Positions 2,037 to 26,138 of a stretch of 64,000 bases of DNA are shown piece by piece (positions within the stretch are counted from its first letter, which is position 1; every line of letters starts with the position of its first letter). Origin of the DNA: Candidatus Omnitrophota bacterium (GTDB taxonomy: Bacteria > Omnitrophota > Omnitrophia > Omnitrophales > JACROU01); assembly GCA_029261035.1 (NCBI GenBank), contig JAJDCD010000023.1, positions 429,126-493,125 on the forward strand, given 5' to 3'. The notes under the pieces are model-generated. The model was not told the DNA's origin, ran no database searches, and saw only the letters and a program-made list of their open reading frames with translations. A program made the position numbers and the translations under genes.

Positions 2037-2297
2037 ATGGAGCCCGTTAGAACTTATACTTATCTCGACAAGAAAGAAAAGATGTTGGGCATAGAAGTAA
2101 TGGATTTTTTAATTCTAGCTCTTATCTATGGGCTGGTTTTTAGTTGTTCCAGCAATATCATTTTAAATTTCATAATTGTGTTCTTAACGTATCTGGGATT
2201 ACGCCTTTATAAGCGCAACAAACCACCTCAATACACTGCAATGCTTTTTCGATTTTTATTTACGCCCAAATATTACACCTTAAAAGGAAGTGAATAA
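2037..2297 (+). CDS. VirB3-like type IV secretion membrane protein
   Basis: An 86-residue protein with one long hydrophobic hairpin near the N-terminus and a basic C-terminal half. It sits between the pilin and the VirB4 ATPase, exactly where VirB3/TrbD lies in conjugative operons. VirB3 proteins are inner-membrane partners of VirB4. Its stop overlaps the ribosome-binding region of the next gene, which suggests coupled translation. Confidence 0.75.
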   Translation: MEPVRTYTYLDKKEKMLGIEVMDFLILALIYGLVFSCSSNIILNFIIVFLTYLGLRLYKRNKPPQYTAMLFRFLFTPKYYTLKGSE

Positions 2298-2298
2298 C

Positions 2299-4773
2299 GT
2301 GCCGAATCCGGTTTTAGTCAGAGATATTTTACAATCCCGAAAAGAAGTTCCTTTTTACAATCAGATTGATTTACTTGCGATTGAGAAGGATGTTCTTATT
2401 GGAGCAAGTGGAAACCTCACAATGGGTTTTCGTTTTGAAGGAGATGATCTTTTCCTTAAATCAAAGCAGGAAATCATTTCATCCGTGGATTATTTAAGAA
2501 AAGCTTTTGGGCATCTTCCCGAAAGAACGCAAGTTCAATTTATCCTAAAACGTAAAGCTGGTCCCGGAAAAGCTCTGTATGACTACAGACGTGCAATCAA
2601 TCAAAAGGATCATCTTTCAAGAGAAATTTCAGAGACCAAATTCAACGCGCTTAAAAGAGATATTCTTTTTAATACGGAAGCTTATTGCTTTGTAACGAAG
2701 TTTTGCCATGAAAAGAAAAAGCTTACAGACAAGTTCATTACAAACAACACCAAAGCTATTGAAATTAGTCGGGAAGAGTATGAGAAAAAGAAAACCGAAC
2801 TTCAAAGCGCATTTTCTCATATTGCCGGAATCTTTAACCACCTAAAGATTGAAGCGACTCCACTCAATGAATGGCATTACAAAAAAATATTCTATTCACA
2901 TTTAAATCCGACACGTTCAGCGAAATTCAGATTAGGTAAGGTTCAGATTGATCCGGTCAATAATGTGACTTTGCGTTCTGCACTTCTTTTTTCAGCTCCG
3001 GTTGTAGAGCATGAACATTTTTATCAGGATGGTTATTTCTATCAGGGCATAAACCTACTTTTACCACCTGAGAGTACGGATATCCAAGGGCTTAGCAAAA
3101 TGCTGGATGAATTAGACATTGCTTATGATTTTATGTTGTCTTTCTATATTCCAAACAATGAAGAAGAAATAGAACAGCTCAAGACAAGGGCAAATGTATC
3201 CAAGACCTTTGGATTTATGGGAAGTTCAAAAAATTATGATGCCACCCAAAAGCACGCTGAAATTGATTCTTTAATTACAGAAATCAAATCTTCCACGCAA
3301 AAGCTAGTTCACTATTCCTTGTCTTTTCTCATTCGGGATAAGCATTTTAATTATCTTAAACAGAAGCAAGAAAAGCTTCTCGAAGCCTTTCCTGTCTTGG
3401 GAAGCTCTGAAGGACTTGCTGACCACATGAATCACGATCAGCTCTATCTAAGCTATTTACCCGGACATGCGTGGAAGAATCCACGGAAATACCTCATTCA
3501 ATCAGACGCGCTTGTAAACCTTCTACCATTTCACAAGAAATGGAGTGGTACAGAGAAAGCAAAATCTCTTCTGAAATCACGTAGTCATGAACTTATCAAG
3601 TTGGACTTGTTTGACTCTAGTCTTCCGGCTAAACATGGTCTGATTCTTGGAACAACAGGTTCTGGAAAATCCTTCACAACCAATTATTTGTTAATGAATT
3701 ACCTATTAGAAGATCCAACAAATCAATTAATTATTATTGATGTGGGAAATTCCTACAAGCGATTAGCCTCCATTTTTAAGGGCAATTATTATGATATTGA
3801 TTTGGGGGAGAATTACGCAATCAATCCTCTTATTCCTAAAAGCCTTTTGTTCCCTGATGGAAAACTTGACCATGAGACATTCGCTTACCTTGCTTTGGTT
3901 ATAGAGAAACTCGTTAAAGCACGCAACGACGAAGTCTTAAGCAATGCGCAGAAAAGACTCATTGAAAAAGCACTCCTTCAAACTTATAAGCAGAGTAATG
4001 CACCCATTTTAGGAGACGTGTTGAGAACGCTTCGGCAACATTCTTTTGATGAGGAAGAGAAGGTACTTGCTAAAGCATTTGCAAGCAACCTAGCCATCTG
4101 GGCAGAGGGGCGTTACGGAAAGCTTCTTGGCAGACAAGGTAATCTTGATATTCAAAACCGTTTTGTCGTTTTTGAGCTTGGAAAGTTAGACGGCTATCCT
4201 GATTTACAGTCGATTATTTTCTTTATTATCCGCTCTGCTATCACTAGTAAACTCTATCAGCGCAATACAAAAAAAGTAATTGTGATTGATGAAGGCTGGC
4301 GTTTCTTTAATGACGAAGCTGGATCAAAGCTCATTGAGGACTTATATCGTACCGCAAGAAAGTTTAATGGGCTTGTCTTGAGTATTTCTCAAAGCCCAGA
4401 AGACTTCCTGAATACAAAAGCCGCTAATGCCATTATCAGTAACTCCTTCACAAAATACATTTTGAAACTCAATCGTGATCCACAAATTTTGTCTCGCTTT
4501 GACTTTAATGATTCGGAAATTAATGCAGTTAAAACATTAACTGCTAAACCCGGATACTTTTCCGAAGTGTTTGTGAAATATAACCAACATTCCGCTGTCA
4601 CTCGTATTGAGCCGACACCGCTTGAATATTGGCTAGCAACGACTAGTCCAGAAGACTACAAACTAGAAGCCCAACAACGAAGCCTTTTTCCAAAGGCTTC
4701 TACATTAGAGCTCCTGAAGAATCTTGCAAAGCAGTATCCAAAGGGAGCTCACTATGCCACGCCCCGAAGATGA
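2299..4773 (+). CDS. VirB4/TraC-like type IV secretion ATPase
   Basis: A protein of about 824 residues powering pilus assembly and substrate transfer at the inner membrane. Walker A 'GTTGSGKS' lies near residue 450, and Walker B 'VIVIDEGWRFF' near residue 660 carries the DE-W signature of VirB4/TraC. Two GTG starts are possible, 2290 and 2299. The AAGGAAG sequence at 2284-2290 is correctly spaced only for 2299, so I chose that; 2290 would overlap the ribosome site and the VirB3 stop. The full-length N-terminal domain is present and the length is normal for the family. Confidence 0.93.
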   Translation: MPNPVLVRDILQSRKEVPFYNQIDLLAIEKDVLIGASGNLTMGFRFEGDDLFLKSKQEIISSVDYLRKAFGHLPERTQVQFILKRKAGPGKALYDYRRAINQKDHLSREISETKFNALKRDILFNTEAYCFVTKFCHEKKKLTDKFITNNTKAIEISREEYEKKKTELQSAFSHIAGIFNHLKIEATPLNEWHYKKIFYSHLNPTRSAKFRLGKVQIDPVNNVTLRSALLFSAPVVEHEHFYQDGYFYQGINLLLPPESTDIQGLSKMLDELDIAYDFMLSFYIPNNEEEIEQLKTRANVSKTFGFMGSSKNYDATQKHAEIDSLITEIKSSTQKLVHYSLSFLIRDKHFNYLKQKQEKLLEAFPVLGSSEGLADHMNHDQLYLSYLPGHAWKNPRKYLIQSDALVNLLPFHKKWSGTEKAKSLLKSRSHELIKLDLFDSSLPAKHGLILGTTGSGKSFTTNYLLMNYLLEDPTNQLIIIDVGNSYKRLASIFKGNYYDIDLGENYAINPLIPKSLLFPDGKLDHETFAYLALVIEKLVKARNDEVLSNAQKRLIEKALLQTYKQSNAPILGDVLRTLRQHSFDEEEKVLAKAFASNLAIWAEGRYGKLLGRQGNLDIQNRFVVFELGKLDGYPDLQSIIFFIIRSAITSKLYQRNTKKVIVIDEGWRFFNDEAGSKLIEDLYRTARKFNGLVLSISQSPEDFLNTKAANAIISNSFTKYILKLNRDPQILSRFDFNDSEINAVKTLTAKPGYFSEVFVKYNQHSAVTRIEPTPLEYWLATTSPEDYKLEAQQRSLFPKASTLELLKNLAKQYPKGAHYATPRR

Positions 4774-4855
4774 TGGCGGTTTCCTTGCCATCTTCTGTAT
4801 GTTTTTAACCGTTTGGATGCTTATTCTTTTAATCCTGAGACATGGAGGTATTTGA
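4754..4855 (+). CDS. 33-residue single-membrane-segment peptide of the transfer operon
   Basis: A short reading frame overlaps the last 20 bases of the VirB4 gene and ends one base before the next start at 4857. It has a good ribosome site (AAGGGAG at 4742-4748, followed by ATG at 4754). The peptide has an acidic start (MPRPEDDGG) then one hydrophobic stretch of about 18 residues (FLAIFCMFLTVWMLILLIL) and ends RHGGI. The tight packing supports translation. Its role is unknown; it sits where some systems encode a small VirB7- or TrbH-like accessory, but it has no lipobox. Confidence 0.5.
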   Translation: MPRPEDDGGFLAIFCMFLTVWMLILLILRHGGI

Positions 4856-4856
4856 G

Positions 4857-5615
4857 ATGAACCGACTGAAACAATTTGTGATGACTTTCATCATGGTGAC
4901 GGTGATCTCTGCCTCCGCTCAGGCGTTTACGGTGCATGACCCTATCAATGGCGCATACAACCTTCTTAGAAATACACTGCTGGAACTTCATCAAGTGGAA
5001 AATTTGAGAAACGCATTAGAAAGATTAACAGAACTCAAGAAAACATTTACTGAATTGGAAAGATTTCACAGCGGCATTGATCAAATCAGACAAGTCTTAA
5101 CCGGCGACTACAAAAGACTGCTCTACCGCTTCAACTCTGGTGGGCTTTCTAGTTTGGGGTACGAGCTTAATCGCTCCCAAAGAGACCTATATCAATTAGT
5201 GAATGGTGGTTTTAACTCAACTCAAAACTACCGATCACATCTTAATTCTATATTTGGTGAAGATCCTAACTCCGCGACCAAACCTTACATCACGCAAGAA
5301 GAAGTTTTTGTAGCTGACGGTTTACGCTGGTCGGGTGAAGTAAGAAAGATTATCGAAACCACCTTTGATGCCGGAGATGATATTTCAAGGGCTTCTCAAA
5401 CCGCATCACCCAAAGGAGCCGCTCGGTTGTCAGCCGATGCTCTTGGAAAAATATTGGTAACACAAGCGCAGATTCAGCAAAACCAATCAAAGCAAATTGA
5501 ATTAACCGCTCTTCAAGTGGAACAAAAGACTCGTGAGGAAAAATATTATGAACGTGAACGAATTAAATTTATGCGTGAGTTTAATCAACTCTTAGACGCA
5601 TTACCAAGCAGGTAA
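4857..5615 (+). CDS. VirB5/TrbJ-like conjugal transfer protein
   Basis: About 252 residues with a signal peptide (MNRLKQF then a hydrophobic core, cleavage near 'AQAF'), followed by a helix-rich, Glu/Lys-rich region and glutamine-rich helices at the C-terminus. The layout matches periplasmic VirB5/TrbJ minor-pilus proteins. The ATG at 4842 overlaps the GGAGGT ribosome site itself, so the ATG at 4857, seven bases after that site, is the better start. It is followed after three bases by the VirB6-like gene. Confidence 0.75.
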   Translation: MNRLKQFVMTFIMVTVISASAQAFTVHDPINGAYNLLRNTLLELHQVENLRNALERLTELKKTFTELERFHSGIDQIRQVLTGDYKRLLYRFNSGGLSSLGYELNRSQRDLYQLVNGGFNSTQNYRSHLNSIFGEDPNSATKPYITQEEVFVADGLRWSGEVRKIIETTFDAGDDISRASQTASPKGAARLSADALGKILVTQAQIQQNQSKQIELTALQVEQKTREEKYYERERIKFMREFNQLLDALPSR

Positions 5616-5618
5616 TCT

Positions 5619-6470
5619 ATGACTATATTTACAGACGCACTTCAAATACCGTCGTTATTTTCAGAGCTTTATGTTTCTGCACAACACATCGCTTTCTTGC
5701 TTGTGTTGCCCATGCTCGTCATTGCCATCTTGCATGAAAATATTGTTCAAATGGAAGTTAAAAGTAATTACACAGGGCTGTTTGTTCGTGTATTAATGAT
5801 TATAGGATTACTCATTATCTATGACCGTTTTTTCACGCTAGTTACTTACGGTACCGACTTACTTGGAAAGACTATTATGCCGGAGGGTGAGTTTGAGGCG
5901 GTCTTAGATACGATCTTCAAAGAGGTTAAGGAGAACAAAGATTTTGGCGTCTTTAACCTTCTTAAAGGAGCCTTGATAAATGGAGTTACCTATATCACCT
6001 ATATTATGACTCTCGTTGCCTATACTGTTTTAATTTGGCTACGCTTCATGTTGCTATCTCTTCTTTACGTTGCCGGTCCGATTCTGATTGCTTTCGGAAT
6101 CTATCGTCAAACAGCGAGTGCACTGGGGGCTTGGTTTCGCTCGCTTTTTCAAGTTTCATCATGGGTAGTAACACTATCCTTATTGGTAAGAATTTCGAGC
6201 TATATGAATCTTACGTCCATTTACAACATTGATAATGTCAACGCAATTTCAGTCATTACAGCAAATGTTTTATTTGTAATGTTATTTATTTTCACACCAG
6301 CGATTACATCTAGCCTTATCTCTGATGGAAACATTGGAACGATTGGTTCCACAATGATTGGTATTACAACAGCGACCACTTTGAAACTTGCAAAGAAAAT
6401 GGGAGCGGTAAAGGCCAGCTCAAATTTATTAAACCGTAAGAATCTGCAAGATCAATCTAATTCTATTTAG
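5619..6470 (+). CDS. VirB6/TrbL-like polytopic membrane protein
   Basis: A 283-residue inner-membrane protein with about six hydrophobic segments (for example residues 20-40, 50-70, 125-165, 180-200, 205-235). The arrangement and size fit VirB6/TrbL, the channel component at the inner membrane. It sits between the VirB5- and VirB8-like genes with gaps of 3 and 8 bases. The tail after the last helix is short and basic. The call is by topology and order, as this family is poorly conserved. Confidence 0.8.
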   Translation: MTIFTDALQIPSLFSELYVSAQHIAFLLVLPMLVIAILHENIVQMEVKSNYTGLFVRVLMIIGLLIIYDRFFTLVTYGTDLLGKTIMPEGEFEAVLDTIFKEVKENKDFGVFNLLKGALINGVTYITYIMTLVAYTVLIWLRFMLLSLLYVAGPILIAFGIYRQTASALGAWFRSLFQVSSWVVTLSLLVRISSYMNLTSIYNIDNVNAISVITANVLFVMLFIFTPAITSSLISDGNIGTIGSTMIGITTATTLKLAKKMGAVKASSNLLNRKNLQDQSNSI

Positions 6471-6478
6471 GAGAAATA

Positions 6479-7111
6479 ATGAACGATTTACCTAAACGAA
6501 AATACTTTGAAGTTTGGGGGGATTTAGAAGCTCAGAATAACACTTTAAAGCTTTTATTGATTTGTTTATGTGTTCTCTTGCTGTTATCTCTCTCACTGAC
6601 TTATTTAGCGACAAGAAAACCACCTGTTGTCATTCGCGTAGAGGACATCGGGAAAGCAGAAGGAGTAAAGGACTTCTCAGTTAATAATAACATTACTCAG
6701 ACTGAATACTTTTACTTTGCAAAGTTATTCATTCGGAAATTTACGGAATACAACTCTTACACCGTTTCATCTGAAATTACAGAAGCCTTTTCGTTGATGA
6801 CTTCCAATTATCAGAAGATTGCAAAAAGGGGAGTCATTGATTCAAATCTAATCAGCAAAATCTCACAAGCATCTATCAACACTAAAATCAAAATAAGAGA
6901 AATCAAGCTTGAACGCGAAGACGAAAACTGCGCCGTCATCTCCTTCTTGGGGTTGCGAAGTATTACCAGTTACAACGACCGCGAGTTTATGCAGGACAGC
7001 CTTTTTAAAGGCGACATTGTCTTAAAGAAAATTCCCCGAAGCATGAATCATCCCCAAGGTCTTTTGGTGGATGAATACCGCGAAATCCTTGTTAAACAAT
7101 TAGACGAATAA
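6479..7111 (+). CDS. VirB8/TraE-like bitopic inner-membrane protein
   Basis: 210 residues: a short cytoplasmic N-terminus, one transmembrane helix (about residues 25-45) and a periplasmic domain of mixed alpha/beta character. This is the VirB8/TraE design, a core scaffold that contacts VirB9 and VirB10. An AGGAGA ribosome site sits just before the ATG. It is followed by the VirB9 gene 14 bases later. Confidence 0.78.
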   Translation: MNDLPKRKYFEVWGDLEAQNNTLKLLLICLCVLLLLSLSLTYLATRKPPVVIRVEDIGKAEGVKDFSVNNNITQTEYFYFAKLFIRKFTEYNSYTVSSEITEAFSLMTSNYQKIAKRGVIDSNLISKISQASINTKIKIREIKLEREDENCAVISFLGLRSITSYNDREFMQDSLFKGDIVLKKIPRSMNHPQGLLVDEYREILVKQLDE

Positions 7112-7125
7112 ATGGAGGCTTTAAT

Positions 7126-8067
7126 ATGAAACGAATCCTAATTATCACCGGTCTGCTTATCTTTTCTACACAAATAGCACATGCGGAGAGTACGGATATT
7201 CTCGCAGAAAGGCAAAGAGAAAATAAACTCGCAAAAACAACCCCCAATATCTATAAAGTGACTGCCAAAACAGGTGTGGCTTTTAAAGTGCAAACTGCTA
7301 TTGGCTATATCACAACGATTGATTTACCGGAAACTGCCATGAAGGTATTTGTGGGAGACGCAGAGCTTTTCAAGGTTGAAGTTTATGACAAGCAGATTGT
7401 TGTCAAGCCCTTAACTGATTATCGGGATGCTAGAACCAATCTCACGGTTTATACAAAGACCGGACGCTTGAGCTTTGATGTTTCTGTTGGTCCGGCTGAG
7501 ACCGCAGATTTCGTCATGGACTTCAGATTGCCGGAAGATGATGCATTGGTTGAAAACGCTTTTCAGGATAAGGTTCGCCAGAAGGAGAAGGAACTGGAAA
7601 CACAATATCAGAAAAAAGTATCTCAACAAGAAGAAAAAGTAGCCGAACTCACGCAAGAAAAGTTTGAAGAGGAATTATCTAAAGGGGCATTAACCAAAAG
7701 ATTAAAAATCTCTGAAAAAGAAGATGGCGTTCAGGTCAACCTTTTATCTCTCTCTGAGGTTGGAACGAGAAGCTACATTCGCTTCAGTATTTTGAATTAT
7801 TCTGATAGAGACTACAGAATCCAGAATATTGTTCTGGGTAAAGAAACCATTCGCAGAAAAGGGTTTAACTTACGCAAAGAGGGTTTTGTTCCGGTAGAAG
7901 CTGAGGTTAATACAGAATATCTCATTCTGGCGAATAGCTATCACTATGGTCTGCTTCACTTTGACAAACTTGTCTTAAGAAAAAATGAACGTTTAGTTCT
8001 TAAAGTCTATGAAGAAGGCAATGCCAAGCCTATTCGCTTCTCTAATATTCCTTGGGAGGTGAAATAA
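7126..8067 (+). CDS. VirB9/TrbG-like outer-membrane complex protein
   Basis: 313 residues with a signal peptide ending near 'AHAES'. The N-terminal half has the VirB9 pattern: 'TTIDLPETAMKVFVGD', then 'VKPLTDYRDARTNLTVYT'. A Lys/Glu-rich helical stretch (about residues 145-185), probably coiled coil, separates it from a beta-rich C-terminal half. VirB9 forms the outer-membrane core ring with VirB10 and VirB7. The stop codon overlaps the ATG of the VirB10 gene by one base, so the two are probably translationally coupled. Confidence 0.82.
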   Translation: MKRILIITGLLIFSTQIAHAESTDILAERQRENKLAKTTPNIYKVTAKTGVAFKVQTAIGYITTIDLPETAMKVFVGDAELFKVEVYDKQIVVKPLTDYRDARTNLTVYTKTGRLSFDVSVGPAETADFVMDFRLPEDDALVENAFQDKVRQKEKELETQYQKKVSQQEEKVAELTQEKFEEELSKGALTKRLKISEKEDGVQVNLLSLSEVGTRSYIRFSILNYSDRDYRIQNIVLGKETIRRKGFNLRKEGFVPVEAEVNTEYLILANSYHYGLLHFDKLVLRKNERLVLKVYEEGNAKPIRFSNIPWEVK

Positions 8068-8963
8068 TGGCAAACGAAGAGCCCAAGACGTTTTATCACC
8101 AAACCAAGAAAGCTGTTACAAAACCCAAGCCCCTGACAATTGCTTTTGCTGCCATAGCATTCATCGTGATCCTTTTCATCTTTTACACAGGCACACGCAA
8201 AAATGATCGAAAGCATGAACCTACCAATGTGTCTGAAGAAATGAAATCTATTTACTCTAAAGTAGAGATAGAGAATCTGATTAAAGAACAACTTACAAAG
8301 GAAATTGAAAGCCAGCAAGACGGTCAGCTTTCAAACACACAAGAATCCGTCAAAAGAAAACTTAATTCCAAGATAGCAGTCTTCGTAAAGGAAACCCCCA
8401 AAGAAAGTTTAGCAGAGGTGAATCTGAAGCAAAGCCAAGAGCTGAAAGTTAATACCGGTGTGAAAATTAAAGCACACCTAGCCAACGCTGTTTTTTCTTT
8501 CAATGTTTCCAGTCCAGTCATTGCTGTCTCAGATGAGGAAATGCAAACCCATACGGATATACCCATTCCAAAAGGAACGCAATTTATTGGTGAAGCCAGT
8601 GTGATTAAAAGTCGAGATCGCGTGAATATTCGCTTTTCCACAATGGTATTCCCCGATGGAGAAGAGCACAGAATAAGAGCTATGGCTCTCAGCTTGGATG
8701 GTTCTGGCGGTATTGCTGGAAAAGTCGACAGAGATTTTGACAAGTCGCTTCTCAAAGCTACCGGTGAAACCATTTTGGCAGGAGCTTCCCTTGTGGTCGG
8801 AGCAAGGGATCGGGCAATTACGCTCGAAGATGAACTCCGGCTGAATACTGCAAGAAATCTCACCGAAGATGCAGAGGATGCTTTACGGCAAGTGAAGGTG
8901 GAGAAGTCCATTACGATTGAGTCTCACACCCCAATCCTCATCTTGTTTCTCGAATCAATCTAA
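8067..8963 (+). CDS. VirB10/TrbI-like core complex protein
   Basis: About 298 residues: a cytoplasmic N-terminus rich in lysine, one membrane helix (residues 25-45), a linker with coiled-coil character and the C-terminal VirB10 domain ('IPKGTQFIGEASV', 'VNIRFSTMVFPDGEEHRI', 'GGIAGKVDRDF'). VirB10 spans both membranes and senses ATPase activity. The ATG at 8067 has GGGAGGTG ahead of it; the TTG at 8052 overlaps that site and is rejected. It is the last recognisable transfer gene in this run and is followed after 27 bases by the TolC-like gene. Confidence 0.88.
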   Translation: MANEEPKTFYHQTKKAVTKPKPLTIAFAAIAFIVILFIFYTGTRKNDRKHEPTNVSEEMKSIYSKVEIENLIKEQLTKEIESQQDGQLSNTQESVKRKLNSKIAVFVKETPKESLAEVNLKQSQELKVNTGVKIKAHLANAVFSFNVSSPVIAVSDEEMQTHTDIPIPKGTQFIGEASVIKSRDRVNIRFSTMVFPDGEEHRIRAMALSLDGSGGIAGKVDRDFDKSLLKATGETILAGASLVVGARDRAITLEDELRLNTARNLTEDAEDALRQVKVEKSITIESHTPILILFLESI

Positions 8964-8990
8964 AACTAATCACTGAAAGGAAAACTATTT

Positions 8991-10223
8991 ATGAAAAAAT
9001 GGACTTTCATACTCTGCCTATTTTTATTACCAACACAAATGCTTCATGCCAATGAAATACATCTTCTTACACTCGATGAGTGTGTGGATTCCGCGCTAAC
9101 ATATAACATGCGCGTACAATTGGGTGAATTAGATAACTTTGAGGCAGAAGAAGGAATTCGCTTTTCCACTCGAAGCATGTTCCCAGTACTCTCCACGTCT
9201 TTTTACGGAGCCATTTCTACAGATGACTCTGTTTATGCCTTTGATGTCCGCGCAGATCAACCTCTTTTTATGGGGGGCGAACTGCTTGCTAAAAAGCGAA
9301 AGGCAGAATCAGTATTAGAGCAAAAGAGATATCAAAACAATCTTGATAAATCTGAACTAGCTTTACTCACTTCACAAGTATTTTATGAAATCAAAACTCT
9401 TGAAGCAGAAGTAAAATTACTTGAAGAGCAGGTTGTCTTTTTGAATAAGCAGGCTCTTGTGCAAACGAAGCTTGCAGAGCAGGGTATGAATATTGCCTCT
9501 GAAGTGCTCTCTCACAAAGCAGAAATCAAGGTTAAAGAAATTGAGCTTGAAGACAAACAACGTGAACTGGAACTTCGCTATGACTATTTGCTTCAGCTAA
9601 CAGGAGTTAACCCAGAATATAGCTATGTTTTAGAGGATATTAAAACAAATAGCTTGTCTGGTATGGATGCAAATATCCATTCTTCCTTCGTTCAAATGCT
9701 CGATGCCGAAATCGAACAGTCCAAACAAAATGTGAAAATCGCAAAGGCTAACTTCTTCCCTAAAGCTGGTCTCGTAGCAAGGTATCGCAATGAGGAAGAT
9801 TCGTTTTATGAGAAGGATGCTTTTGAAGCAGGGGTTTTAGTGAAATGGAACATTTGGGACTTTGGACAGACACAATCCGATGTAAAACAAAAGAAAATAA
9901 AACATCAGAAAAGACTCCTTAATAAGGAGATCGTTCTTCAAAGCTACAATTTTGAGTTACAAAAATTGTCTAATAAACTCAAAACAAAAGAAAGCAAGGT
10001 GGAATTGGCTGAAGAACAACTTCGCTTGGAAGAAGAAAATTTTAAGAATGCGAATACCCGAAAAATGCAGGGGGATATTTCTTCACTTACATTCGAGCAA
10101 ATCAAACTAACTCTAAGCAATGCTAAGACAGCGCTCGCCAAAGCGATTATTGATTATCGTATCACTGAATCCAAAATACTCCATCTCTCAGGAAAACTGA
10201 TTAAGGGCACCGTCTATGAATAG
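8991..10223 (+). CDS. TolC-family outer-membrane export protein
   Basis: 410 residues with a signal peptide (MKKWTF to 'LHANE') and two long helix-rich halves typical of outer-membrane efflux proteins: 'LTLDECVDSALTYN' near the N-terminus and a second repeat with 'VKWNIWDFGQT' followed by a long helical hairpin. TolC proteins form the outer-membrane tunnel of tripartite exporters. It follows the VirB10 gene directly and overlaps the glycosyltransferase start by 8 bases, so it belongs with the downstream export module rather than with DNA transfer (inference). Confidence 0.88.
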   Translation: MKKWTFILCLFLLPTQMLHANEIHLLTLDECVDSALTYNMRVQLGELDNFEAEEGIRFSTRSMFPVLSTSFYGAISTDDSVYAFDVRADQPLFMGGELLAKKRKAESVLEQKRYQNNLDKSELALLTSQVFYEIKTLEAEVKLLEEQVVFLNKQALVQTKLAEQGMNIASEVLSHKAEIKVKEIELEDKQRELELRYDYLLQLTGVNPEYSYVLEDIKTNSLSGMDANIHSSFVQMLDAEIEQSKQNVKIAKANFFPKAGLVARYRNEEDSFYEKDAFEAGVLVKWNIWDFGQTQSDVKQKKIKHQKRLLNKEIVLQSYNFELQKLSNKLKTKESKVELAEEQLRLEEENFKNANTRKMQGDISSLTFEQIKLTLSNAKTALAKAIIDYRITESKILHLSGKLIKGTVYE

Positions 10224-11742
10224 CAGAGTTTATTTCTCTTTATTCTTCGGACTCTGGGGCTGGTCTGCATGGTTGGCTTATGACGCTTTTGCCCTGGGTA
10301 TGAGTAATCAGTGGATTGCATGGGCGTGGCTTACAGGATACAGCTTTCTGATTATGAATGTGGTGTATATATTTCTTACGGCATTATCTTATCTTGTTGT
10401 AAAACCATCTCCGCTTGCAGAAACTTATGTTTCTTACATCCCAAAGACTGCAATCATTTACCCCGTTAAGAACGAAGACATTGGTATGTTTGAACGCATT
10501 TCATTCACTTTAGAAAATAATAATCTACCGGGCGTTCATCTCTGGATTCTAAGTGATTCAGATTCAAACTTTCTTGAAAGCGAGCACGCTCTTATTCAGA
10601 AGCTAAGAGAGCAATTTGGAAAAGATAAGATCTATTATCGTCATAGAGAACACCCAAGTGAAAGAAAACAAGGCAATGTTTTAAGTTGGTTAGTAGAGAA
10701 TCTCTATTATAAATATTTCTTTGTGTGCGATGCAGACAGCATGGCTCCGAAAGGAACCTTACTTAAGCTTATTAAGAAAGCGGAACATCCTGACAATGCA
10801 AATGTTTCACTGTTTCAAACATTTATCAAAATCACGCATGCAAAAACCCGGTATTCAAAACTTCAATCCATCGGCTCTCGTCTCTCGCAAGAGCTTTACT
10901 TCAAAACATATCAGCAGGTTTTTGGAACAACAATTTCTTTTGGTCATTTATGTTTAATTCGAAGCAAAGACTTTGCTAAGATCAAAATTCCAAAAGGAAT
11001 ATTAAGTCATGATATCTGGGACACAGCCTATCTTGATCGCATGGGAAAAAAGTTAGCCTTTTGTCATGATGTTAAAACATGGGATGAAGCTCCGGCTAAC
11101 TACTTAGAGGAGAAGGTACGCGCTAAGCGTTGGGCTAAGGGTACGTTGCAATCATGGCCGCTTCTTTTTAAGAAGGGCATTTCGTTTTCCATGAAGTTTT
11201 ATGTGTTTTATGGAATCTATGTTTACATTTCACATCTTGTCTTGTTGGGTTGGTTCATTTTAAATTTACTTTTAGGTTTTGAAACAAATGCCCAATGGTT
11301 ATTTTTAAAATCCAACAACAAACTATTTATCTCACCGTTCATGCGACAAGAATTACTCATAGGTTTATTGCTAACTTTGGGTGTTATTTATCTACATCGA
11401 TTTGTTTTGTTAAAGAGAGCGAAGTTCAAAGACATATTTACCGACATTGTCTTTTCAACGCTGATATCGCTCAACAATATCTATTACCTGAGCCTTGACT
11501 TGATTTTATTCCCCTTTGAAGGGCTTTCTTGGAATCCTATGAAGAAAAACCCTTTCAGCAAAATAAGTCTGAAGCAAGTTATCAAAACCATGTGGCCGAC
11601 AACCATAATTGGCATCATTGGTCTTTATTACGGTTGTCAACATACGGGCTTGGCGCTATGGATATCCATGCCTTTATTGCTCAGTTTTTCTTTTTCAATT
11701 CCGGTTGTTTACTGGACTTCTCAACCGCTTTCAAAGTCTTAA
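10216..11742 (+). CDS. membrane glycosyltransferase, GT2, OpgH-like
   Basis: 508 residues. Two N-terminal membrane helices are followed by a GT2 catalytic domain with 'SDSDSN' (about residue 110), the metal-binding 'CDADS' (about 172), 'LSHDIWDTAYL' with a likely catalytic Asp (about 264) and 'RAKRWAKGT', a variant of the processive Q(R)xxRW motif (about 302). Four or more C-terminal membrane helices follow. The 'ILSHD...' to 'RW.KG' part resembles the OpgH/MdoH glucosyltransferase. It probably polymerises and extrudes a glucan-like chain. It overlaps the TolC gene and precedes an HlyD gene. Confidence 0.8.
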   Translation: MNSRVYFSLFFGLWGWSAWLAYDAFALGMSNQWIAWAWLTGYSFLIMNVVYIFLTALSYLVVKPSPLAETYVSYIPKTAIIYPVKNEDIGMFERISFTLENNNLPGVHLWILSDSDSNFLESEHALIQKLREQFGKDKIYYRHREHPSERKQGNVLSWLVENLYYKYFFVCDADSMAPKGTLLKLIKKAEHPDNANVSLFQTFIKITHAKTRYSKLQSIGSRLSQELYFKTYQQVFGTTISFGHLCLIRSKDFAKIKIPKGILSHDIWDTAYLDRMGKKLAFCHDVKTWDEAPANYLEEKVRAKRWAKGTLQSWPLLFKKGISFSMKFYVFYGIYVYISHLVLLGWFILNLLLGFETNAQWLFLKSNNKLFISPFMRQELLIGLLLTLGVIYLHRFVLLKRAKFKDIFTDIVFSTLISLNNIYYLSLDLILFPFEGLSWNPMKKNPFSKISLKQVIKTMWPTTIIGIIGLYYGCQHTGLALWISMPLLLSFSFSIPVVYWTSQPLSKS

Positions 11743-11758
11743 ATTACGGAGGGCATCC

Positions 11759-12754
11759 ATGAATCAAAATCAACAACGGGCAAAGTCTGTCCGAAACAAG
11801 CCATGCTATGGCAGACCGAGCACACCACCCAACCTTTTTACCGACAAAAAACAAAAACCGGCTATGTCAAAAGCAAAGCGGTTAATGATGCAGTTCGCCT
11901 TTGTAGGAATTTCGCTAACTATTCTCTTGTTGCCTGTTCGGATTACAGTCAAAGCCGATGGGAAAATCATTCCAACGAGCATTTACTCTGTGGATACACC
12001 TGCAACAGGAACGGTTATAAAAGTCTTCAAAGAAGAAGGCTCTGAGATCAAGAAGGGCGATGCTTTGCTTCAACTAAAAAGTGACGAATTGGAACTAAGA
12101 AACAAACAGATTGAAAAGGAAATTGAAATCATTCAATCCGAAATGGCTATTCTGGAAAAAGAAAAAATAATTCAAGGGCAGATTGTTAAAAAGAACCAGC
12201 TCTATTTTGAAACCGGAGGCATTTCAGAATCAGACAAACAGACCGCTGAACAGAGATTACAGCAAATCAATGTCAGGCAAGAATTGCTTCACAAACGAGA
12301 AGAACAAGTTCTTGAACGGAAACTCTATCTGCAACAGCTTTCAGAGGCTTTGCTTATGCGTTCTCCGGCTGACGGGATCGTATTAACTAACTTGCGAGAT
12401 TATGTAGGGCGTACGATTAAAGAAGGCGATCAAGCCGTTCAGATTGCTAATAGAGAATACGCTTTGGAAGTCCTAGTTATCGAAGACCGTGCTTCCGCTT
12501 TGCGCACAGGTATTACAGCTTCTATCCGTTTTCTTTCAGAGCCTTTTATAACTTACCGAGGAACTATTGAAAAAATAGATTCAAAGGTTGATGAGCGAAT
12601 TGAAAGAATTTGGAATAAAAGCAGTGTGATTCGAGTGTTAGTCAAACCCGATACTTCTCTTGACCTTCAATCAGGCATGGAAGCTCGCGTTAAATTTAAG
12701 ACAACTCAAAAAACTAATTTTCTTCAACAAATCGTAAAACAAATCATTCTCTAA
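11759..12754 (+). CDS. HlyD-family periplasmic adaptor
   Basis: 331 residues. A basic cytoplasmic N-terminus and one membrane helix (about residues 43-60) are followed by a biotinyl-lipoyl-like half motif ('GTVIKVFKEEGSEIKKGD'), a coiled-coil hairpin (about 105-205), the second half motif ('RSPADGIVLTN') and a beta-barrel domain. The frame is open further upstream, but GGAGGG at 11748-11753 marks the ATG at 11759. Adaptors of this type link an inner-membrane transporter to TolC; here the partner appears to be a glycosyltransferase rather than an ABC or RND pump. Confidence 0.88.
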   Translation: MNQNQQRAKSVRNKPCYGRPSTPPNLFTDKKQKPAMSKAKRLMMQFAFVGISLTILLLPVRITVKADGKIIPTSIYSVDTPATGTVIKVFKEEGSEIKKGDALLQLKSDELELRNKQIEKEIEIIQSEMAILEKEKIIQGQIVKKNQLYFETGGISESDKQTAEQRLQQINVRQELLHKREEQVLERKLYLQQLSEALLMRSPADGIVLTNLRDYVGRTIKEGDQAVQIANREYALEVLVIEDRASALRTGITASIRFLSEPFITYRGTIEKIDSKVDERIERIWNKSSVIRVLVKPDTSLDLQSGMEARVKFKTTQKTNFLQQIVKQIIL

Positions 12755-12766
12755 GAAAGGAAAACT

Positions 12767-13492
12767 ATGAAAGCAATTATTCTATGTGCCGGTTACGCTA
12801 CCCGTCTTTACCCATTAACAGAAACAAAAGCCAAACCCCTCATTGAAATTAAGGGAAAACCCATTGTGGAACATATTGTTGATCAACTTCTCTATTTAGC
12901 AGTTGTTACGGATATTCAACTTGTCGTAAATAATAAATTCTTCAAAGACTTTGAAGCTTGGAAAGAAAAACAAACATATTCTGAGAGAATTAAAATATTC
13001 AACAATGGCTCAAGTGATGTTTCAGATGCTCGCGGAGCAATTGGAGACTTTTTCTTCGCCTTAGAACAATCACAAGATGATGATGTTCTGCTCATTGCCG
13101 GTGATAATTATTTTGATTTCAACCTCTGCTTTTTCACAACTTACAGCCAGCTTCAGTTCCACCATCCAGTAATTGCCGTCTATTCGCTGAAGGACAAGAG
13201 ACAAGCTTCACAGTTTGGAATCATTTCTACAAATCGCTACGGCAAAGTCACTTGGTTTGAAGAAAAACCACAAAACCCAAAAAGCACACTAGCAAGCATT
13301 GGACTTTACTACATACCCAAACAAGCATTGTCCCTGATCGATCAATACAAAGCCGAGAATAATCCAAAAGATCAAATTGGCCATTTCATCGGCTGGCTCA
13401 CACAAAACACCGATGTCCTTGCATATCCGGTACTTGGAAAATGGTATGACATTGGTAGTAAGGAGATTTTAAAGGCAGCCAACTCATCTTGA
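12767..13492 (+). CDS. sugar nucleotidyltransferase (NDP-sugar pyrophosphorylase family)
   Basis: 241 residues. The N-terminal signature 'ILCAGYATRLYPLTETKAKP' is the nucleotide-binding loop of RmlA/GlmU-type pyrophosphorylases. 'GDNYFDF' supplies the metal-binding Asp, and 'WFEEKP' and 'SIGLYYIP' are further family marks. It activates a sugar 1-phosphate with an NTP, plausibly supplying the donor for the upstream glycosyltransferase. An AGAAAGG site precedes the ATG, 12 bases after the HlyD stop, so it ends the same operon. The exact sugar and nucleotide cannot be read from the sequence. Confidence 0.85.
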   Translation: MKAIILCAGYATRLYPLTETKAKPLIEIKGKPIVEHIVDQLLYLAVVTDIQLVVNNKFFKDFEAWKEKQTYSERIKIFNNGSSDVSDARGAIGDFFFALEQSQDDDVLLIAGDNYFDFNLCFFTTYSQLQFHHPVIAVYSLKDKRQASQFGIISTNRYGKVTWFEEKPQNPKSTLASIGLYYIPKQALSLIDQYKAENNPKDQIGHFIGWLTQNTDVLAYPVLGKWYDIGSKEILKAANSS

Positions 13493-13550: not shown

Positions 13551-13733
13551 ATGGACACACTTATAGTAAAGCTTGAAAGATACCGACTGGAGAAAAAGAT
13601 CACGCAAGAGCGTCTTGCTAAGAAACTCGGCGTTTCTTTTACAACTGTGAATCGTTGGCTGAACGGTAAGGCGATGCCTAATAAAATACAACAGTATCAC
13701 ATCGAGAAGTTAGTTGGGTTAAAGAAAATTTAA
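13551..13733 (+). CDS. Xre-family HTH protein, possible R-M controller
   Basis: 60 residues, almost all a Cro/C1-type helix-turn-helix: 'YRLEKKITQERLAKKLGVS' then 'TTVNRWLNGKAMPN'. Small proteins of this kind act as controller (C) proteins of restriction-modification systems, and this one lies directly before two methyltransferase genes. It could equally be an unrelated small regulator. No strong ribosome site is seen upstream of the ATG. Confidence 0.7.
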   Translation: MDTLIVKLERYRLEKKITQERLAKKLGVSFTTVNRWLNGKAMPNKIQQYHIEKLVGLKKI

Positions 13734-13811
13734 ACATGGAAACATATTCAACTCTTGAAACCAAAGAAAGTAATTCTAAAAGAAATGGAAAAAACGGCAA
13801 AAGGAATCAGC

Positions 13812-14900
13812 ATGAACAATGAGCGCGTAGGTTTATTTGAGGAAAACATACTCTCAAACAAACTAGAAGGGCAGGCCTTTTTCTATTACAAGAACAAAAA
13901 AAAGAAAATTGTGGCTGATCCTAATTCTCTTAACCAAGAAAGAGCTGAGCAGAGACTCAAGGATTTGTTTGTAGAGTTTCAAACGACGCTACCAAAGAAG
14001 TTCATAGAAAACTGGGCTGATGTAAAACTATATGACCCAAGCGGTAATGTAGAAAAAGCCCACGCTATTATCCTTCAACCGGATCAAGGGGCATATGATC
14101 TAAAGAACAAAATTAATCATATGACTGGGAAAGAATGGACTTTATTCTCATGTAGTTGGTTTATTTTTAATGCGTTGAAAAAAGATTTAGACGAAGAGCG
14201 AAGAATATGCGGGAATTCAGCTGATCATCCTGCCACATACTCTCCAACCATGATGGAAGATTTTATAAAATTCTTCACCAAAGAAGGAATGAGCGTTCTT
14301 GACCCCTTTGCAGGTATTGGTAGCACTCTTGTTGGCTGCGCTAGGACAAATCGAGTAGGCTATGGTATCGAACTCAATGATAAATATTTCAACACAATCC
14401 TTAAAAGGGTACCAGAATTTAAAAAAAATATTGTTTGTGGTGATTCTCGGGACGTTAAAAAACATTTTAAAAAAAGGACTTTTGATTTTTGTATCTCATC
14501 ACCTCCATATTGGGATGTCTTAAACCGAAGTACCGGTAATTTTGAAAATAAAAGGATTGCACGTGGTCTTGATGTTAAGTATTCAGATAATTCTGTAGAT
14601 CTTGGAAACATCAGTGACTATGACGCCTTTCTATCCGAATTACATGCAGTGTATTCTGATATATATGATTTGCTAAGAGACGGAGCCTATCTTGTCATTA
14701 TCGTGAAAAATATAAAAAAAAGCGGTAAGTTATACCCATTAGCTTGGGATCTTGCTTCCAAGCTTTCTCGCAAATACTCTTTGAAGGACGAGAAAATTTG
14801 GATACAAGATAAGGTTGCGCTAGCCCCATATGGATATCCGTATTCTTGGACATCAAATATCTTGCATCATTACTGTATTATCTTGAGAAAAGAAAAATGA
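13812..14900 (+). CDS. DNA methyltransferase 1 of R-M island (amino-MTase, SPPYW type)
   Basis: 362 residues from the ATG at 13812, which has AAAAGGAA at good spacing; the frame is open back to a TTG at 13755. It carries the SAM-binding motif I 'DPFAGIGSTLVGCA' and the catalytic motif IV 'SPPYW', typical of N4-cytosine and some N6-adenine methyltransferases. In the primary sequence motif IV follows motif I. The second methyltransferase starts inside its stop codon (ATGA overlap), so the two are translationally coupled. The methylated base cannot be fixed from the motif alone. Confidence 0.85.
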   Translation: MNNERVGLFEENILSNKLEGQAFFYYKNKKKKIVADPNSLNQERAEQRLKDLFVEFQTTLPKKFIENWADVKLYDPSGNVEKAHAIILQPDQGAYDLKNKINHMTGKEWTLFSCSWFIFNALKKDLDEERRICGNSADHPATYSPTMMEDFIKFFTKEGMSVLDPFAGIGSTLVGCARTNRVGYGIELNDKYFNTILKRVPEFKKNIVCGDSRDVKKHFKKRTFDFCISSPPYWDVLNRSTGNFENKRIARGLDVKYSDNSVDLGNISDYDAFLSELHAVYSDIYDLLRDGAYLVIIVKNIKKSGKLYPLAWDLASKLSRKYSLKDEKIWIQDKVALAPYGYPYSWTSNILHHYCIILRKEK

Positions 14901-16534
14901 CGCCCGAATCAGTCATTGAGATTCCTACGCTCCCAATAAAGAAGAAAAAGATTCTTAATCCAAACGGGAAACCAAACTTATCTGGATACATATCCCCGCC
15001 AACTGATAATCTCAAAGTAAAACGGTATGCCAAAATTTACAACGTCCATAAATACTGGTCGCGCAAACCCTGGTATCCCATTTCTGAGTGCATAAAAAAA
15101 TACTCTAACAAGCAAGACCTAGTCGTAGATATGTTTATGGGCAGTGGCGTTGTCGGACTCGAAGCAAGTATATTAGGGAGAGATTTTGTTGGGTTTGATT
15201 TAAATCCAATGAGCATTTTTATTGCAAGTAATACATTTTCTTGCAACTTTGATGCTGGGGAATTCAAGAAAGACCTTGATATACTAAAAACAAGAATAGA
15301 AGGCATCGCGAGCGAGTATTATTCGGTAAAGGATAAATGTGCGAACTGTAAGAATAATTTAATGATAAAACATTGCAACATTGGTCCTAAACACAAAGGT
15401 AAAGAAACGGTTGCCCTTTATTGTTATTCTTGCTCGTCAAGCCGAACCCAGAGTATTCGCCCGCTTAAAAAGAAAGAACTAAATGATTGCCACAGCACTC
15501 GTTCTCCTAAGATATCAATCCCTGATGCACGATTTCCTGAAAAATTCTACAAGGATCGATTTTCTTATAAAGGGGTGTCAAAAGTTAGTGATATGTACAC
15601 AAGTCGAAATTATTATTTTTTAGGACTTTTGCTTAGAGAAATCCATCAATTAAACTCGAAATATAGAGATCTTTTGTTAACTGCTTTTTCTAATACCGTC
15701 CTACATGCGAGTAAATTAAAAAGTGAAAATGTTCGCCCTCTCAATGTAAACAATTACTGGCTTCCAGATGATTATTTTGAAGAAAATCCTTGGTTCAGAT
15801 ATCTTGAAAGAATTGACCTAATCATCAGTTCAAAAGAGATATTATCTCAGAGAATAAAAGGAAAGCCTTTAGGAAAATATAAATTAAACAATATTTCGTG
15901 TTTTAAAACCAAGCTAGACAGCACCAGCGTAGACTATATATTGACCGATCCACCTTATGGCGATGCAATTCAATATTCCGAATTATCTTTTATGTGGAAT
16001 TCATGGATGGGGTTTAACTTTGACAATGAAAAAGAAGTTGTTATAAATCCAGTTCAAGGAAAAAAGATTGGAGACTATCTTGGTCTCCTTGAAAAAAGTG
16101 TTGTCGAAGCATCTAGGATCCTAAAAAAAGACAAGTTTTATACATTGTGTTTTCACAATAAAGAATTTTCTATTTGGAAAGGCGTTCTGGATATATTTAA
16201 AAACAACAACTTCGTTCTTGAGAATATTGATATCGTAAATACGAAAGGCAATCCATATAATTCCAACTGGGCGCAGTTTTCACCAAAGTCAGATCTCTAC
16301 TTAACCTTTAGGAAAAATCATTACATCGCAAAGTATCATTCGGAACATAGAATCAATGATTTTATTAGAGAGTTATTTACTAATATTACGACCAATGACC
16401 CTGCTTCTTTGTACGATTTTATTGCAGTTAATTTAATAAACGATTTGTATTTTAATGATTATCAAATGAATGTGAATGGGTTGGATTTGAAAACAATATT
16501 TAAAATTTACAAAGAGGTGAAAAATGGAGATTGA
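14897..16534 (+). CDS. DNA methyltransferase 2 of R-M island (DPPYGD type, zinc-binding insert)
   Basis: 545 residues. An N-terminal 'KYWSRKPWYPISECI' block precedes the SAM motif 'DMFMGSGVVGLEA' (about residue 77) and 'GFDLNP'. A likely zinc ribbon (CANC, then CYSC, about residues 150-180) follows, and the catalytic 'TDPPYGD' lies near residue 351. It is an amino-methyltransferase that modifies adenine N6 or cytosine N4. Two different methyltransferases side by side suggest an asymmetric target with one enzyme per strand. The TTG at 14846 inside the previous gene is rejected in favour of the ATG at 14897. Confidence 0.83.
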   Translation: MTPESVIEIPTLPIKKKKILNPNGKPNLSGYISPPTDNLKVKRYAKIYNVHKYWSRKPWYPISECIKKYSNKQDLVVDMFMGSGVVGLEASILGRDFVGFDLNPMSIFIASNTFSCNFDAGEFKKDLDILKTRIEGIASEYYSVKDKCANCKNNLMIKHCNIGPKHKGKETVALYCYSCSSSRTQSIRPLKKKELNDCHSTRSPKISIPDARFPEKFYKDRFSYKGVSKVSDMYTSRNYYFLGLLLREIHQLNSKYRDLLLTAFSNTVLHASKLKSENVRPLNVNNYWLPDDYFEENPWFRYLERIDLIISSKEILSQRIKGKPLGKYKLNNISCFKTKLDSTSVDYILTDPPYGDAIQYSELSFMWNSWMGFNFDNEKEVVINPVQGKKIGDYLGLLEKSVVEASRILKKDKFYTLCFHNKEFSIWKGVLDIFKNNNFVLENIDIVNTKGNPYNSNWAQFSPKSDLYLTFRKNHYIAKYHSEHRINDFIRELFTNITTNDPASLYDFIAVNLINDLYFNDYQMNVNGLDLKTIFKIYKEVKNGD

Positions 16535-20001: not shown

Positions 20002-20153
20002 TTATTTATCATAATTTATTTGATATTATTTAAATTATAAATATAATGCTAGCTATAGAAGATTCAGCAGAAACAGTCACTCTTGAACCATTAAAGAGAT
20101 GCTATCCCCCAGCGCGCGGAATCTTTTATGATAAATACTTAGGGGGTCAAACT

Positions 20154-20756
20154 ATGAATGCTGAACTATTACGATATTTAGGAGTCAATAACACAATCAT
20201 AAATGCGATACAAAAAAGCTATGGTGAAGAACTCGAAGAACTTGAGATACAGCAAGATCAAAGTGATCTGAAACTTATTCTTCGTAAAACTGGCCCAGTA
20301 GGTTTTAAACCGCATGTTCTGACGATTCAAAGTTTCTTTGAGAAAAAGACTTACGCACAGATCAAAGAAGCAGAGATTCAGTATGGGGTTACGAAGTATA
20401 ATTGCAGAGATGTTTTAGAGTTTATGCCGGACGGCATTTCTTCCGGTGAGAACCTTGTGATTAACGGTGCAAAGTTAAAGCTTTGTGATTCCCTGTATAA
20501 GCTTTTAAGTTATTTAGCAAAAGAACTAAAAAAAACGGAAGTTGGTTGGGTTTATATACAGGATTTGAAAGAAGCTAAAATTATTCCGTCTGATGGATAT
20601 CAGCCTTTCAGCCGGTTACGAAGTGCGATTGCTGGATATCTTCTGGAAAAGAACCCTAAAGACTTCTTAGAATCTAACGGAAGAAAGCAGTATCGGCTCT
20701 CAATTGATCCAAAGAATATAATTTTTAGAACAGAGGTTAAAACAGTATGCGAGTAA
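20154..20756 (+). CDS. hypothetical protein of mobile element
   Basis: About 200 residues with no domain I recognise. The N-terminus is 'MNAELLRYLGVNNTI', the middle has 'TYAQIKEAEIQYGVTKYN' suggesting an HTH-like segment, and the C-terminal third ('LCDSLYKLLSYLAKEL') may be a winged helix. The frame is open back to 20046. The only good ribosome site (AGGGGG at 20141-20146) fits the ATG at 20154, so I use that. It overlaps the next gene by 10 bases. A DNA-binding regulator is possible but unproven. Confidence 0.6.
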   Translation: MNAELLRYLGVNNTIINAIQKSYGEELEELEIQQDQSDLKLILRKTGPVGFKPHVLTIQSFFEKKTYAQIKEAEIQYGVTKYNCRDVLEFMPDGISSGENLVINGAKLKLCDSLYKLLSYLAKELKKTEVGWVYIQDLKEAKIIPSDGYQPFSRLRSAIAGYLLEKNPKDFLESNGRKQYRLSIDPKNIIFRTEVKTVCE

Positions 20757-24178: not shown

Positions 24179-24532
24179 ATGCAACCACACTACTCCCAAA
24201 TGTCTTCGGATAAGCGTTGGGAGAAAGTCGGAGAACTTCTATACAAAGCCATCCATCGCTTATTACTTGAAGAACAACAAAATAAAGATGTCCCGATGAA
24301 GCAATACTTAAGCCCTCAAGAAACAGCGAAATTTCTTAATGTGTCTCACCGGACCCTTCAACGCTGGATCTCAAGAGGACAGATTTCTATTCATCGCAAA
24401 GAAAATGGTTATATTCTCTTTTCTCAAGACGACCTTAATAAGATCAAGCTATTGAAATCAAAACCTATTGGAAAGCAAATTACTCACGCCGGTAATCGTT
24501 TAAAGTCCCGCCCAGCCACGACCGTTTTTTAA
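24179..24532 (+). CDS. excisionase-like HTH protein, C-terminus replaced by transposon sequence
   Basis: 117 residues. 'YLSPQETAKFLNVSHRTLQR' followed by 'WISRGQISIHRKENGYILFS' is a MerR/excisionase-type winged helix (HTH_17). Such proteins act as Xis directionality factors or regulators. The last 17 or so codons (from about 24480) lie antisense to the end of the transposase gene. The original C-terminus was therefore probably cut off by insertion and replaced with transposon-derived residues. It starts one base after the RecB-like nuclease stop. Confidence 0.75.
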   Translation: MQPHYSQMSSDKRWEKVGELLYKAIHRLLLEEQQNKDVPMKQYLSPQETAKFLNVSHRTLQRWISRGQISIHRKENGYILFSQDDLNKIKLLKSKPIGKQITHAGNRLKSRPATTVF

Positions 24533-25534
24533 TATTTGCTTGCTCATTATTCTCTAAGGGCATATTTCCCATAGCTGAATGGGGGCGAACAGTGTTGTAA
24601 TATTTGACGTATTCGCTGATTAAATGATCCAGATGCTTCTCGCCAAAAACAACGAACTTGTTTAGACATTCGCGTTTGATTGTACCGACCCAGCCCTCGG
24701 CATACGGATTGAGATTTGGAGATCGATAAGGGATAGGTCTTATTTCATAACCAATCTGTTTGAAGACTTCATCAAATTCCTTAGTGAATTTTGTATCTCT
24801 GTCTCTAACGAGTAAATGCTTTCCTTTTCCTTCTTTGAAAACAAAAGAAAGAGATTTAGTGTGATCTGTAACCCATTCTTTATTAGGGTGTTGTGTCATA
24901 CCAGCAATATGAACTTTTCTTGTACGGACATTGATAAAGAACAAGACATGCAAAGTTATTGGTCCTAGAAGCGTCCAGATAGTTTTTGTAAAAAAGTCAC
25001 ATGCCCATAGAGTTTGGAATTCTCTTTTGATAAAGGCATCCCAAGTGTCTTCATAACGCTTGGGGCAGGGTCGAGCCCATGCTCTTTGAGGATATTTTTG
25101 ATGGTATTTCGCGATAGACTTTTTATGCGAAGCTTTTTGAGTTCTCCGAGGATGCGCGTATATCCCCAATCATTCTCACGCGCCATCTTAAGAACAAGTT
25201 CACATATTTCAGCCTTTGTGCGAGGACGACCTCTATTTGTTTTTGGAAACTTAAAAGATATCTTTTCCGTTGCCCATCTTCGGAAGGTGGAATAGCTGAC
25301 AATAGATAATACTTTTTTGATTTCACCTTTGAGGGGCAATCCAAATTTGAGAAGTCTTCTTTTTTCAACAGGGCTGACGGTGACTCTTTTTCCAGCCTTA
25401 GTTCTGAGAATCTCATTTTCAGCTTTGAGGTACTCAATTTGTCGAACAAGATCACTTTGTGTAACCTTGCCAATCAAATAAAAGAATTCTTTGAAGATGC
25501 CGTTATTTACTTCATGGACTCCTGTTTGTATCAT
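24480..25534 (-). pseudogene. DDE transposase (rve-type integrase core), frameshifted
   Basis: The N-terminal half (25534 down to about 25060) has an HTH region with '[20 protein letters not shown]' and '[14 protein letters not shown]'. The C-terminal half, in another frame, has the catalytic core: 'WACDFFTKT', 'RDRDTKF' and 'AEGWVGTIKRECLNKF' with the final Glu. The junction falls at CTTGGGG (25059-25065), where a one-base slip would restore '[11 protein letters not shown]', the usual family continuation. The start has AAGGAG upstream. It is either a decayed element or one using frameshifting. I could not identify clear terminal inverted repeats. Confidence 0.85.
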
Positions 25535-25610
25535 GGTATTTTATTCTCCTTCTTTGTTCTTTTGGTACGGTCTCATCTTTTTTGCACCCCACTGAACAGG
25601 CAGAATAAGG

Positions 25611-25711
25611 AAAACCTACGACACTTACGACAAATTCAGCTATTTTTCGGAGCGAAAGTTTCCCTAGTGGAATGTTGGGTGGGATGCTTGAAGAAAACAA
25701 AACCTACGACA
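25611..25711. repeat. 13-bp direct repeats between transposase and ParB-like gene
   Basis: AAAACCTACGACA occurs at 25611-25623 and again at 25699-25711. The second copy contains the stop codon of the ParB-like gene. The pair may mark the outer edge of the inserted transposon or an old recombination site. Confidence 0.45.
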
Positions 25712-26120: not shown

Positions 26121-26138
26121 GGGGAGCCATTTATAAAG

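Follow-up and report, generated by a model that had tools for sequence, protein, structure and literature searches.

Why should a set of genes for making and exporting a polysaccharide follow, almost without a gap, the genes of a type IV secretion system (T4SS), and does its product have any part in transfer? The question is raised by a locus in a 2.7 Mb genome of the Omnitrophota, a group of uncultured bacteria, contained in a 64,000-nucleotide stretch (C16:429126-493125) that is referred to here as the window. The genes concerned all lie on the + strand, in the order virD4, virB2, virB3, virB4, virB5, virB6, virB8, virB9, virB10, TolC, GT2, HlyD, and nucleotidyltransferase, and domains were assigned to them with Pfam and NCBIfam models.

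The T4SS portion begins with the gene for the coupling protein, virD4, whose start lies ~390 bases 5′ of the ORF start at 33 and therefore beyond the window edge. Its C-terminal part (33-1289) matches TraG-D_C (8.3e-10), TrwB_AAD_bind, and T4SS-DNA_transf. The virB2-like and virB3-like genes (1739-2035 and 2037-2297) have homologues at the equivalent position in two other loci (L027 and L036), and are followed by a virB4/traC ATPase gene (2290-4773; P-loop_TraG, 4e-36; TraC-F-type, 3.4e-74). Next are virB5 (4842-5615), virB6 (5619-6470; Pfam TrbL, below its cut-off), virB8 (6479-7111), virB9 (7126-8067; Pfam CagX), and virB10 (8067-8963; Pfam TrbI). For virB5 and virB8, the names were given from gene order and from what relatives conserve. 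No VirB11 was seen in this T4SS gene set.

Directly after virB10 is the gene for an outer membrane channel of the TolC family, whose N-terminus resembles a signal peptide (8991-10223; OEP, 1.5e-39; type_I_sec_TolC, 6.4e-17). It is followed by genes for an OpgH-like GT2 glucan synthase (10216-11742), recognized by its conserved motifs and by MdoH/OpgH models, a HlyD/EmrA-type periplasmic adaptor (11759-12754; HlyD_D23, 4.1e-11; HlyD_3, 1.4e-9; also its structural model), and an RmlA/GalU-like sugar-1-phosphate nucleotidyltransferase (12767-13492; NTP_transferase, 1.4e-32). The HlyD gene starts with the ATG at 11759; the ORF list offers an earlier TTG at 11609, within the GT2 gene. Counted from the end of virB10 (8963), the successive gaps between these genes are 27, -8, 16, and 12 bases. 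The sequence-only reading, which placed the same four families immediately behind virB10 with short gaps or overlaps, is thus borne out in coordinates, strand, and family. It had also reported that the cassette lacks a transporter, and Pfam and NCBIfam scans indeed found no ABC, RND, or MFS gene within the window operon; the sole polytopic inner-membrane protein of the cassette is GT2, and the RND pumps that the genome does encode all lie outside the integrative element described below. A promoter or terminator break between virB10 and TolC, combined with a separate transporter partner, had been named as what would overturn that reading; it was looked for and not found. No terminator-like site occurs in the virB10-TolC gap (8964-8990), and terminator-like matches in the region are about as numerous as expected from shuffled sequence. 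Directly 3′ of the cassette (13551-16534) are an XRE-type small regulator (13551-13733) and DNA methyltransferase-like genes, and a very long ORF of 2869 codons spans 54391-63000.

The whole unit is carried by an element of ~31 kb, located at tRNA-Asn, which encodes VirD4 and VirB2-6/8-10. On the left it is bounded by the tRNA-Asn gene, which lies ~5.1 kb before the window beside a serine recombinase gene (named from sequence alone) that runs into the tRNA-Asn 3′ end; the gene immediately upstream of tRNA-Asn is presumably recR, as judged from an unaided reading. The probable right end is an exact 14-base repeat of the tRNA-Asn 3′ end, CGGGGAGCCATTTA (26120-26133, + strand), which consists of the last ten bases of the tRNA gene plus TTTA, and it is these two ends that give the element its size. 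The stretch that leads up to the proposed right end (24480-26120) contains fragments of IS-type integrase cores and a ParB-like gene that is truncated. In locus L024 (~6804-6834), the 5′ part of tRNA-Asn is present a second time, over at least 30 bases, directly 5′ of the intact gene; an older insertion may have left it behind.

With a T4SS that includes VirB4 and a coupling protein, and with an integrase and an attachment site, the element shares these features with ICEs. A different use of the T4SS, in place of DNA transfer, would be effector delivery or attachment to a host or prey, with the glucan serving attachment. Such a role would suit the host-dependent traits described for Omnitrophota (PMC10066038), and a scan of a subset of the ORFs recovered no canonical relaxase, only a Replic_Relax protein encoded just before VirD4. 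This protein has a homologue in the second copy of the window's genome, where a virD4 homologue (E=1.2e-108) also adjoins the cassette. Effector delivery or attachment is nevertheless quite unlikely, as VirD4 has a TraG/TraD C-terminal domain, a serine recombinase sits at the tRNA end, and genomes can hold more than one copy, of different lineages. Also at odds with it is a small gene that most relatives carry in the virB10-TolC interval (L045:8257-8505, L049:8180-8458, and at six other loci), and whose profile hits PC4 (3.4e-9), a fold that binds single-stranded DNA. The gene is missing from the window's own copy, and its presence in relatives fits a DNA-transfer operon that runs on into the cassette.

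How firmly, then, is the cassette tied to the transfer genes? The order virB10-(PC4-like ORF)-TolC-GT2 is kept in 17/17 loci from 14 genomes, as found by tblastn and profile searches; a locus was testable if its contig extends upstream of GT2. The loci came from two largely overlapping sets, and each contig was counted once. In T4SS loci, HlyD is next after GT2 wherever the contig reaches, and the TolC and GT2 genes share ~4 bases at the majority of loci (8 in the window). Chance adjacency of virB10 and the cassette was rejected on the strength of this constant order. The window's VirB4 subtype, comprising genes scoring >1100 bits plus one gene split in two pieces (all others score <390 bits), is present in 11/384 sampled genomes of the phylum, ten of which also have GT2. 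In the eleventh (G042), VirB4 is 2.2 kb from the contig end and the contig stops before the cassette position; among the sampled genomes, the subtype occurs only where the cassette is present or the contig is cut.

The genes of the unit also appear to share a history. Patristic distances across nine loci correlate at r=0.99 for VirB4-GT2, 0.93 for VirB10-GT2, 0.96 for TolC-GT2, and 0.90 for GT2-HlyD, and at 0.98, 0.85, 0.95, and 0.91, respectively, when the long-branch locus L056 is left out. For VirB4, VirB10, and TolC, none of 5000 permutations gave an agreement with GT2 as high as that observed. The window's genome holds two lineages of the whole unit, the window copy and L021, and these fall on different branches in both the VirB4 and GT2 trees, which suggests that the unit moves whole. 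The earlier claim that the cassette belongs to the transfer operon is accordingly upheld by its invariant position and by the agreement of gene trees. The nucleotidyltransferase is less tightly tied to the cassette, being absent directly after HlyD in L046 and remote in L056, and no conserved extra gene was seen inside the relatives' cassettes.

The named relatives of GT2 are all from Omnitrophota save for one Desulfobacterales MAG contig, and a search of a plasmid collection with GT2 returned only distant MdoH proteins of ~24-30% identity. In the Desulfobacterales MAG, the whole unit is carried on two contigs, L046 and L106, that share end sequence. This may reflect horizontal transfer or mis-binning; 0/115 searched relatives of the MAG have the unit at a comparable score, which makes a mis-binned contig plausible.

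Integrative elements often carry fitness genes, and the cassette might be ordinary cargo of this kind, specifying a host surface polysaccharide for biofilm formation, stress, or phage protection that is irrelevant to transfer. The GT2-HlyD-TolC triad is also found in T4SS-free chromosomal loci, as expected of such cargo, and secreted CBM11-like proteins adjoin some cassettes. Cargo, however, differs between related elements, whereas the cassette is fixed after virB10 at every testable locus and is co-inherited with VirB4; the genes after the nucleotidyltransferase, by contrast, do vary between elements. We therefore regard the cargo explanation as unlikely, and the conserved gene order indicates that the polymer is probably part of the spread of the element rather than a passenger. 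The CBM11-like genes lie at L021:4401-5084 and 6677-7327, L056:18513-19217 and 20005-20604, L062:5437-6060, and L045:15313-15912, and in the window's genome the second cassette is flanked by two of that genome's three strongest copies. They were found with a purpose-built profile; a CBM11 family search gave no match, controls included, and a PDB search with the profile also gave none.

What might the cassette make? The GT2 protein matches NF003958 (MdoH/OpgH) at 1.8e-44 over residues 30-504, nearly its full length, with similarity in both the GT2 core and the C-terminal membrane part, but falls below the OpgH/MdoH equivalog cut-off (152 vs 419 bits), and is therefore a relative of OpgH and not OpgH itself. 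It retains the motifs NE, SDS, ERKQGN, DAD, SHDxWDT, and RxxRWxxGTLQ, and in an alignment of 16 sequences the nucleotide-binding, DxD, HD acceptor-site, and RxxRW motifs are invariant. A GT-A domain, DxD, HD/TED-like, and RW motifs, and several TM helices are thus combined in one chain, as in processive GT2 enzymes of the BcsA/HAS/CGS type. The GT2 model is nearest to CGS and BcsA (Foldseek); a PDB search with the sequence alone gave no match, and one with the GT2 profile gave only weak matches to cyclic glucan synthase at 0.08. From the fold and from operon context, the product is probably a beta-glucan, most likely beta-1,2-linked. The best PDB match of the nucleotidyltransferase is a glucose-1-phosphate thymidylyltransferase (1.6e-16), and no GalU above its cut-off was found in the window's genome.

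The adaptor has all the parts expected of the HlyD/MFP family, namely a lipoyl domain, an alpha-hairpin, a barrel, and an N-terminal anchor. In its AlphaFold2 model (pLDDT 81.6), an N-terminal TM helix (38-57) precedes a hairpin (109-151/157-196) of ~40 residues per arm and the lipoyl and barrel domains. The best fold matches of the model are MacA (1.4e-17) and EmrA (1.1e-16; Foldseek), both adaptors of TolC pumps. Adaptors meet TolC at the RLS motif. The hairpin-tip motif of this family, RxxxLxENGVIG in the alignment and KNQLYFETGGIS in the window protein, is close to that motif.

The occurrence of these genes apart from transfer genes bears on whether they work together. The sequence-only reading had proposed looking for the same four genes in order in other genomes, with and without transfer genes, and GT2-HlyD-TolC was found in both settings, each time with no transporter in the unit. 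The T4SS-free sets, in other Omnitrophota, are GT2-HlyD-[TolC::GH144::TPR] in L093 and TolC-HlyD-GT2 in L095, while in L029 a stop-interrupted GT2 stands together with HlyD. GT2, HlyD, and TolC can thus associate independently of a T4SS. The L093 fusion (4335-7895, − strand) combines TolC and PF10091 domains with TPRs in a chain of 1186 residues. Its PF10091/GH144 part matches the endo-beta-1,2-glucanase 5gzh at 2.6e-32, which ties TolC to glucan. The fusion is followed by a 1441-residue protein that is RHS-like by eye.

These loci also bear on the idea that GT2 makes a periplasmic, OPG-like glucan and that HlyD-TolC is an unrelated exporter sharing the operon, serving a pump encoded elsewhere or the T4SS. 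OpgH of E. coli releases its glucan into the periplasm, and the RND pumps elsewhere in the genome would be candidate partners. This arrangement is very unlikely, given that GT2 and HlyD are adjacent in T4SS loci and in L029, L093, and L095 (a more distant GT2, in L094, stands without HlyD or TolC), that TolC is fused to a glucanase domain in L093, and that the window's genome has no OpgG/MdoG homologue, nor OpgG/OpgD. An export role for GT2-HlyD-TolC is likely on present sequence comparisons. Some points still weigh against it: other transporters in the genome could in principle use the HlyD-TolC pair, the linkage of the product is assigned by homology, and E. coli OpgH itself delivers its glucan to the periplasm.

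Comparable arrangements have been described. A tripartite line of XcsA, XcsB, and TolC was proposed, without validation, for cyanobacterial cellulose (Maeda 2018, reviewed in PMC12430437), and has been questioned since its genes are not in one operon (PMC12430437). Like that system, the cassette combines a GT2 synthase, a HlyD-like adaptor, and a TolC-like channel with no separate pump; here, however, all three are encoded together in one operon, the GT2 is OpgH-like and lacks PilZ, and the whole is linked to a T4SS. In the rhizobial mixed-linkage beta-glucan system, a GT2 glucan synthase (BgsA) likewise adjoins a HlyD-domain protein (BgsB), which is thought to form the exit channel (PMC9495663), but the operon is c-di-GMP-regulated, bicistronic, and without TolC or transfer genes. 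The resemblance to OpgGH lies in the match of GT2 to MdoH/OpgH models, and the differences in its shorter protein and in HlyD and TolC, which take the place of OpgG/OpgD. The structure that the GT2 model matches best is CGS, and a related operon also encodes a GH144-type domain, yet the window protein corresponds to the GT2 part only and no Cgt-type ABC exporter accompanies it. As for VirB/Tra T4SSs with mating-pair formation genes, VirD4, VirB2-6, and VirB8-10 are present in order; what differs, besides the missing VirB11, is the glucan synthase-export set fixed after virB10. The sequence-only reading had held that glycan synthases use partners other than HlyD-TolC. The lack of a transporter in the unit agrees with its argument, but the statement was too strong, as the HlyD-type adaptors BgsB and XcsB were already known or proposed. 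Novelty thus resides in the operon and its tie to transfer. No paper linking a GT2-HlyD-TolC set to a T4SS, or describing the set in Omnitrophota, was found in the open-access literature, a scope that makes this weak evidence of novelty, and the text of the main comparative genome paper of Omnitrophota is silent on both conjugation and type IV secretion.

Taken together, the explanation we favor, and hold to be somewhat more probable than an even chance, is that this family of DNA-transfer operons has, as a permanent component, a dedicated glucan synthesis-export line, whose surface glucan aids transfer. In this scheme, the nucleotidyltransferase would supply the sugar nucleotide, and the OpgH-like GT2 would polymerize a beta-glucan and thread the chain through a membrane channel of its own. 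From there, the HlyD adaptor would carry the chain across the periplasm, and TolC would pass it through the outer membrane. Once at the surface, the glucan would promote transfer of the element; the simplest way would be to keep donor and recipient in contact. Gene identities, linkage and co-inheritance with the T4SS, catalytic motifs, and the T4SS-free association can be read directly from the genomes; the conduit, the glucan linkage, and above all the mating-contact role are what we infer from them. Coupling of the glucan line to transfer is likely, given its invariance and co-inheritance; the suggestion of the sequence-only reading that a sticky glycan stabilizes mating contacts is a reasonable guess and no more. 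A stronger version, in which the exported beta-glucan is built into the mating apparatus as an indispensable component (glue, sheath, or recipient contact) and does the job performed elsewhere by protein mating-pair stabilization factors, is possible but rather doubtful.

As the three genes are found together in T4SS loci and in two T4SS-free loci, the synthase-HlyD-TolC route becomes testable. If the glucan is needed for transfer, the structural parts of a conjugation machine would include a polysaccharide in addition to proteins.
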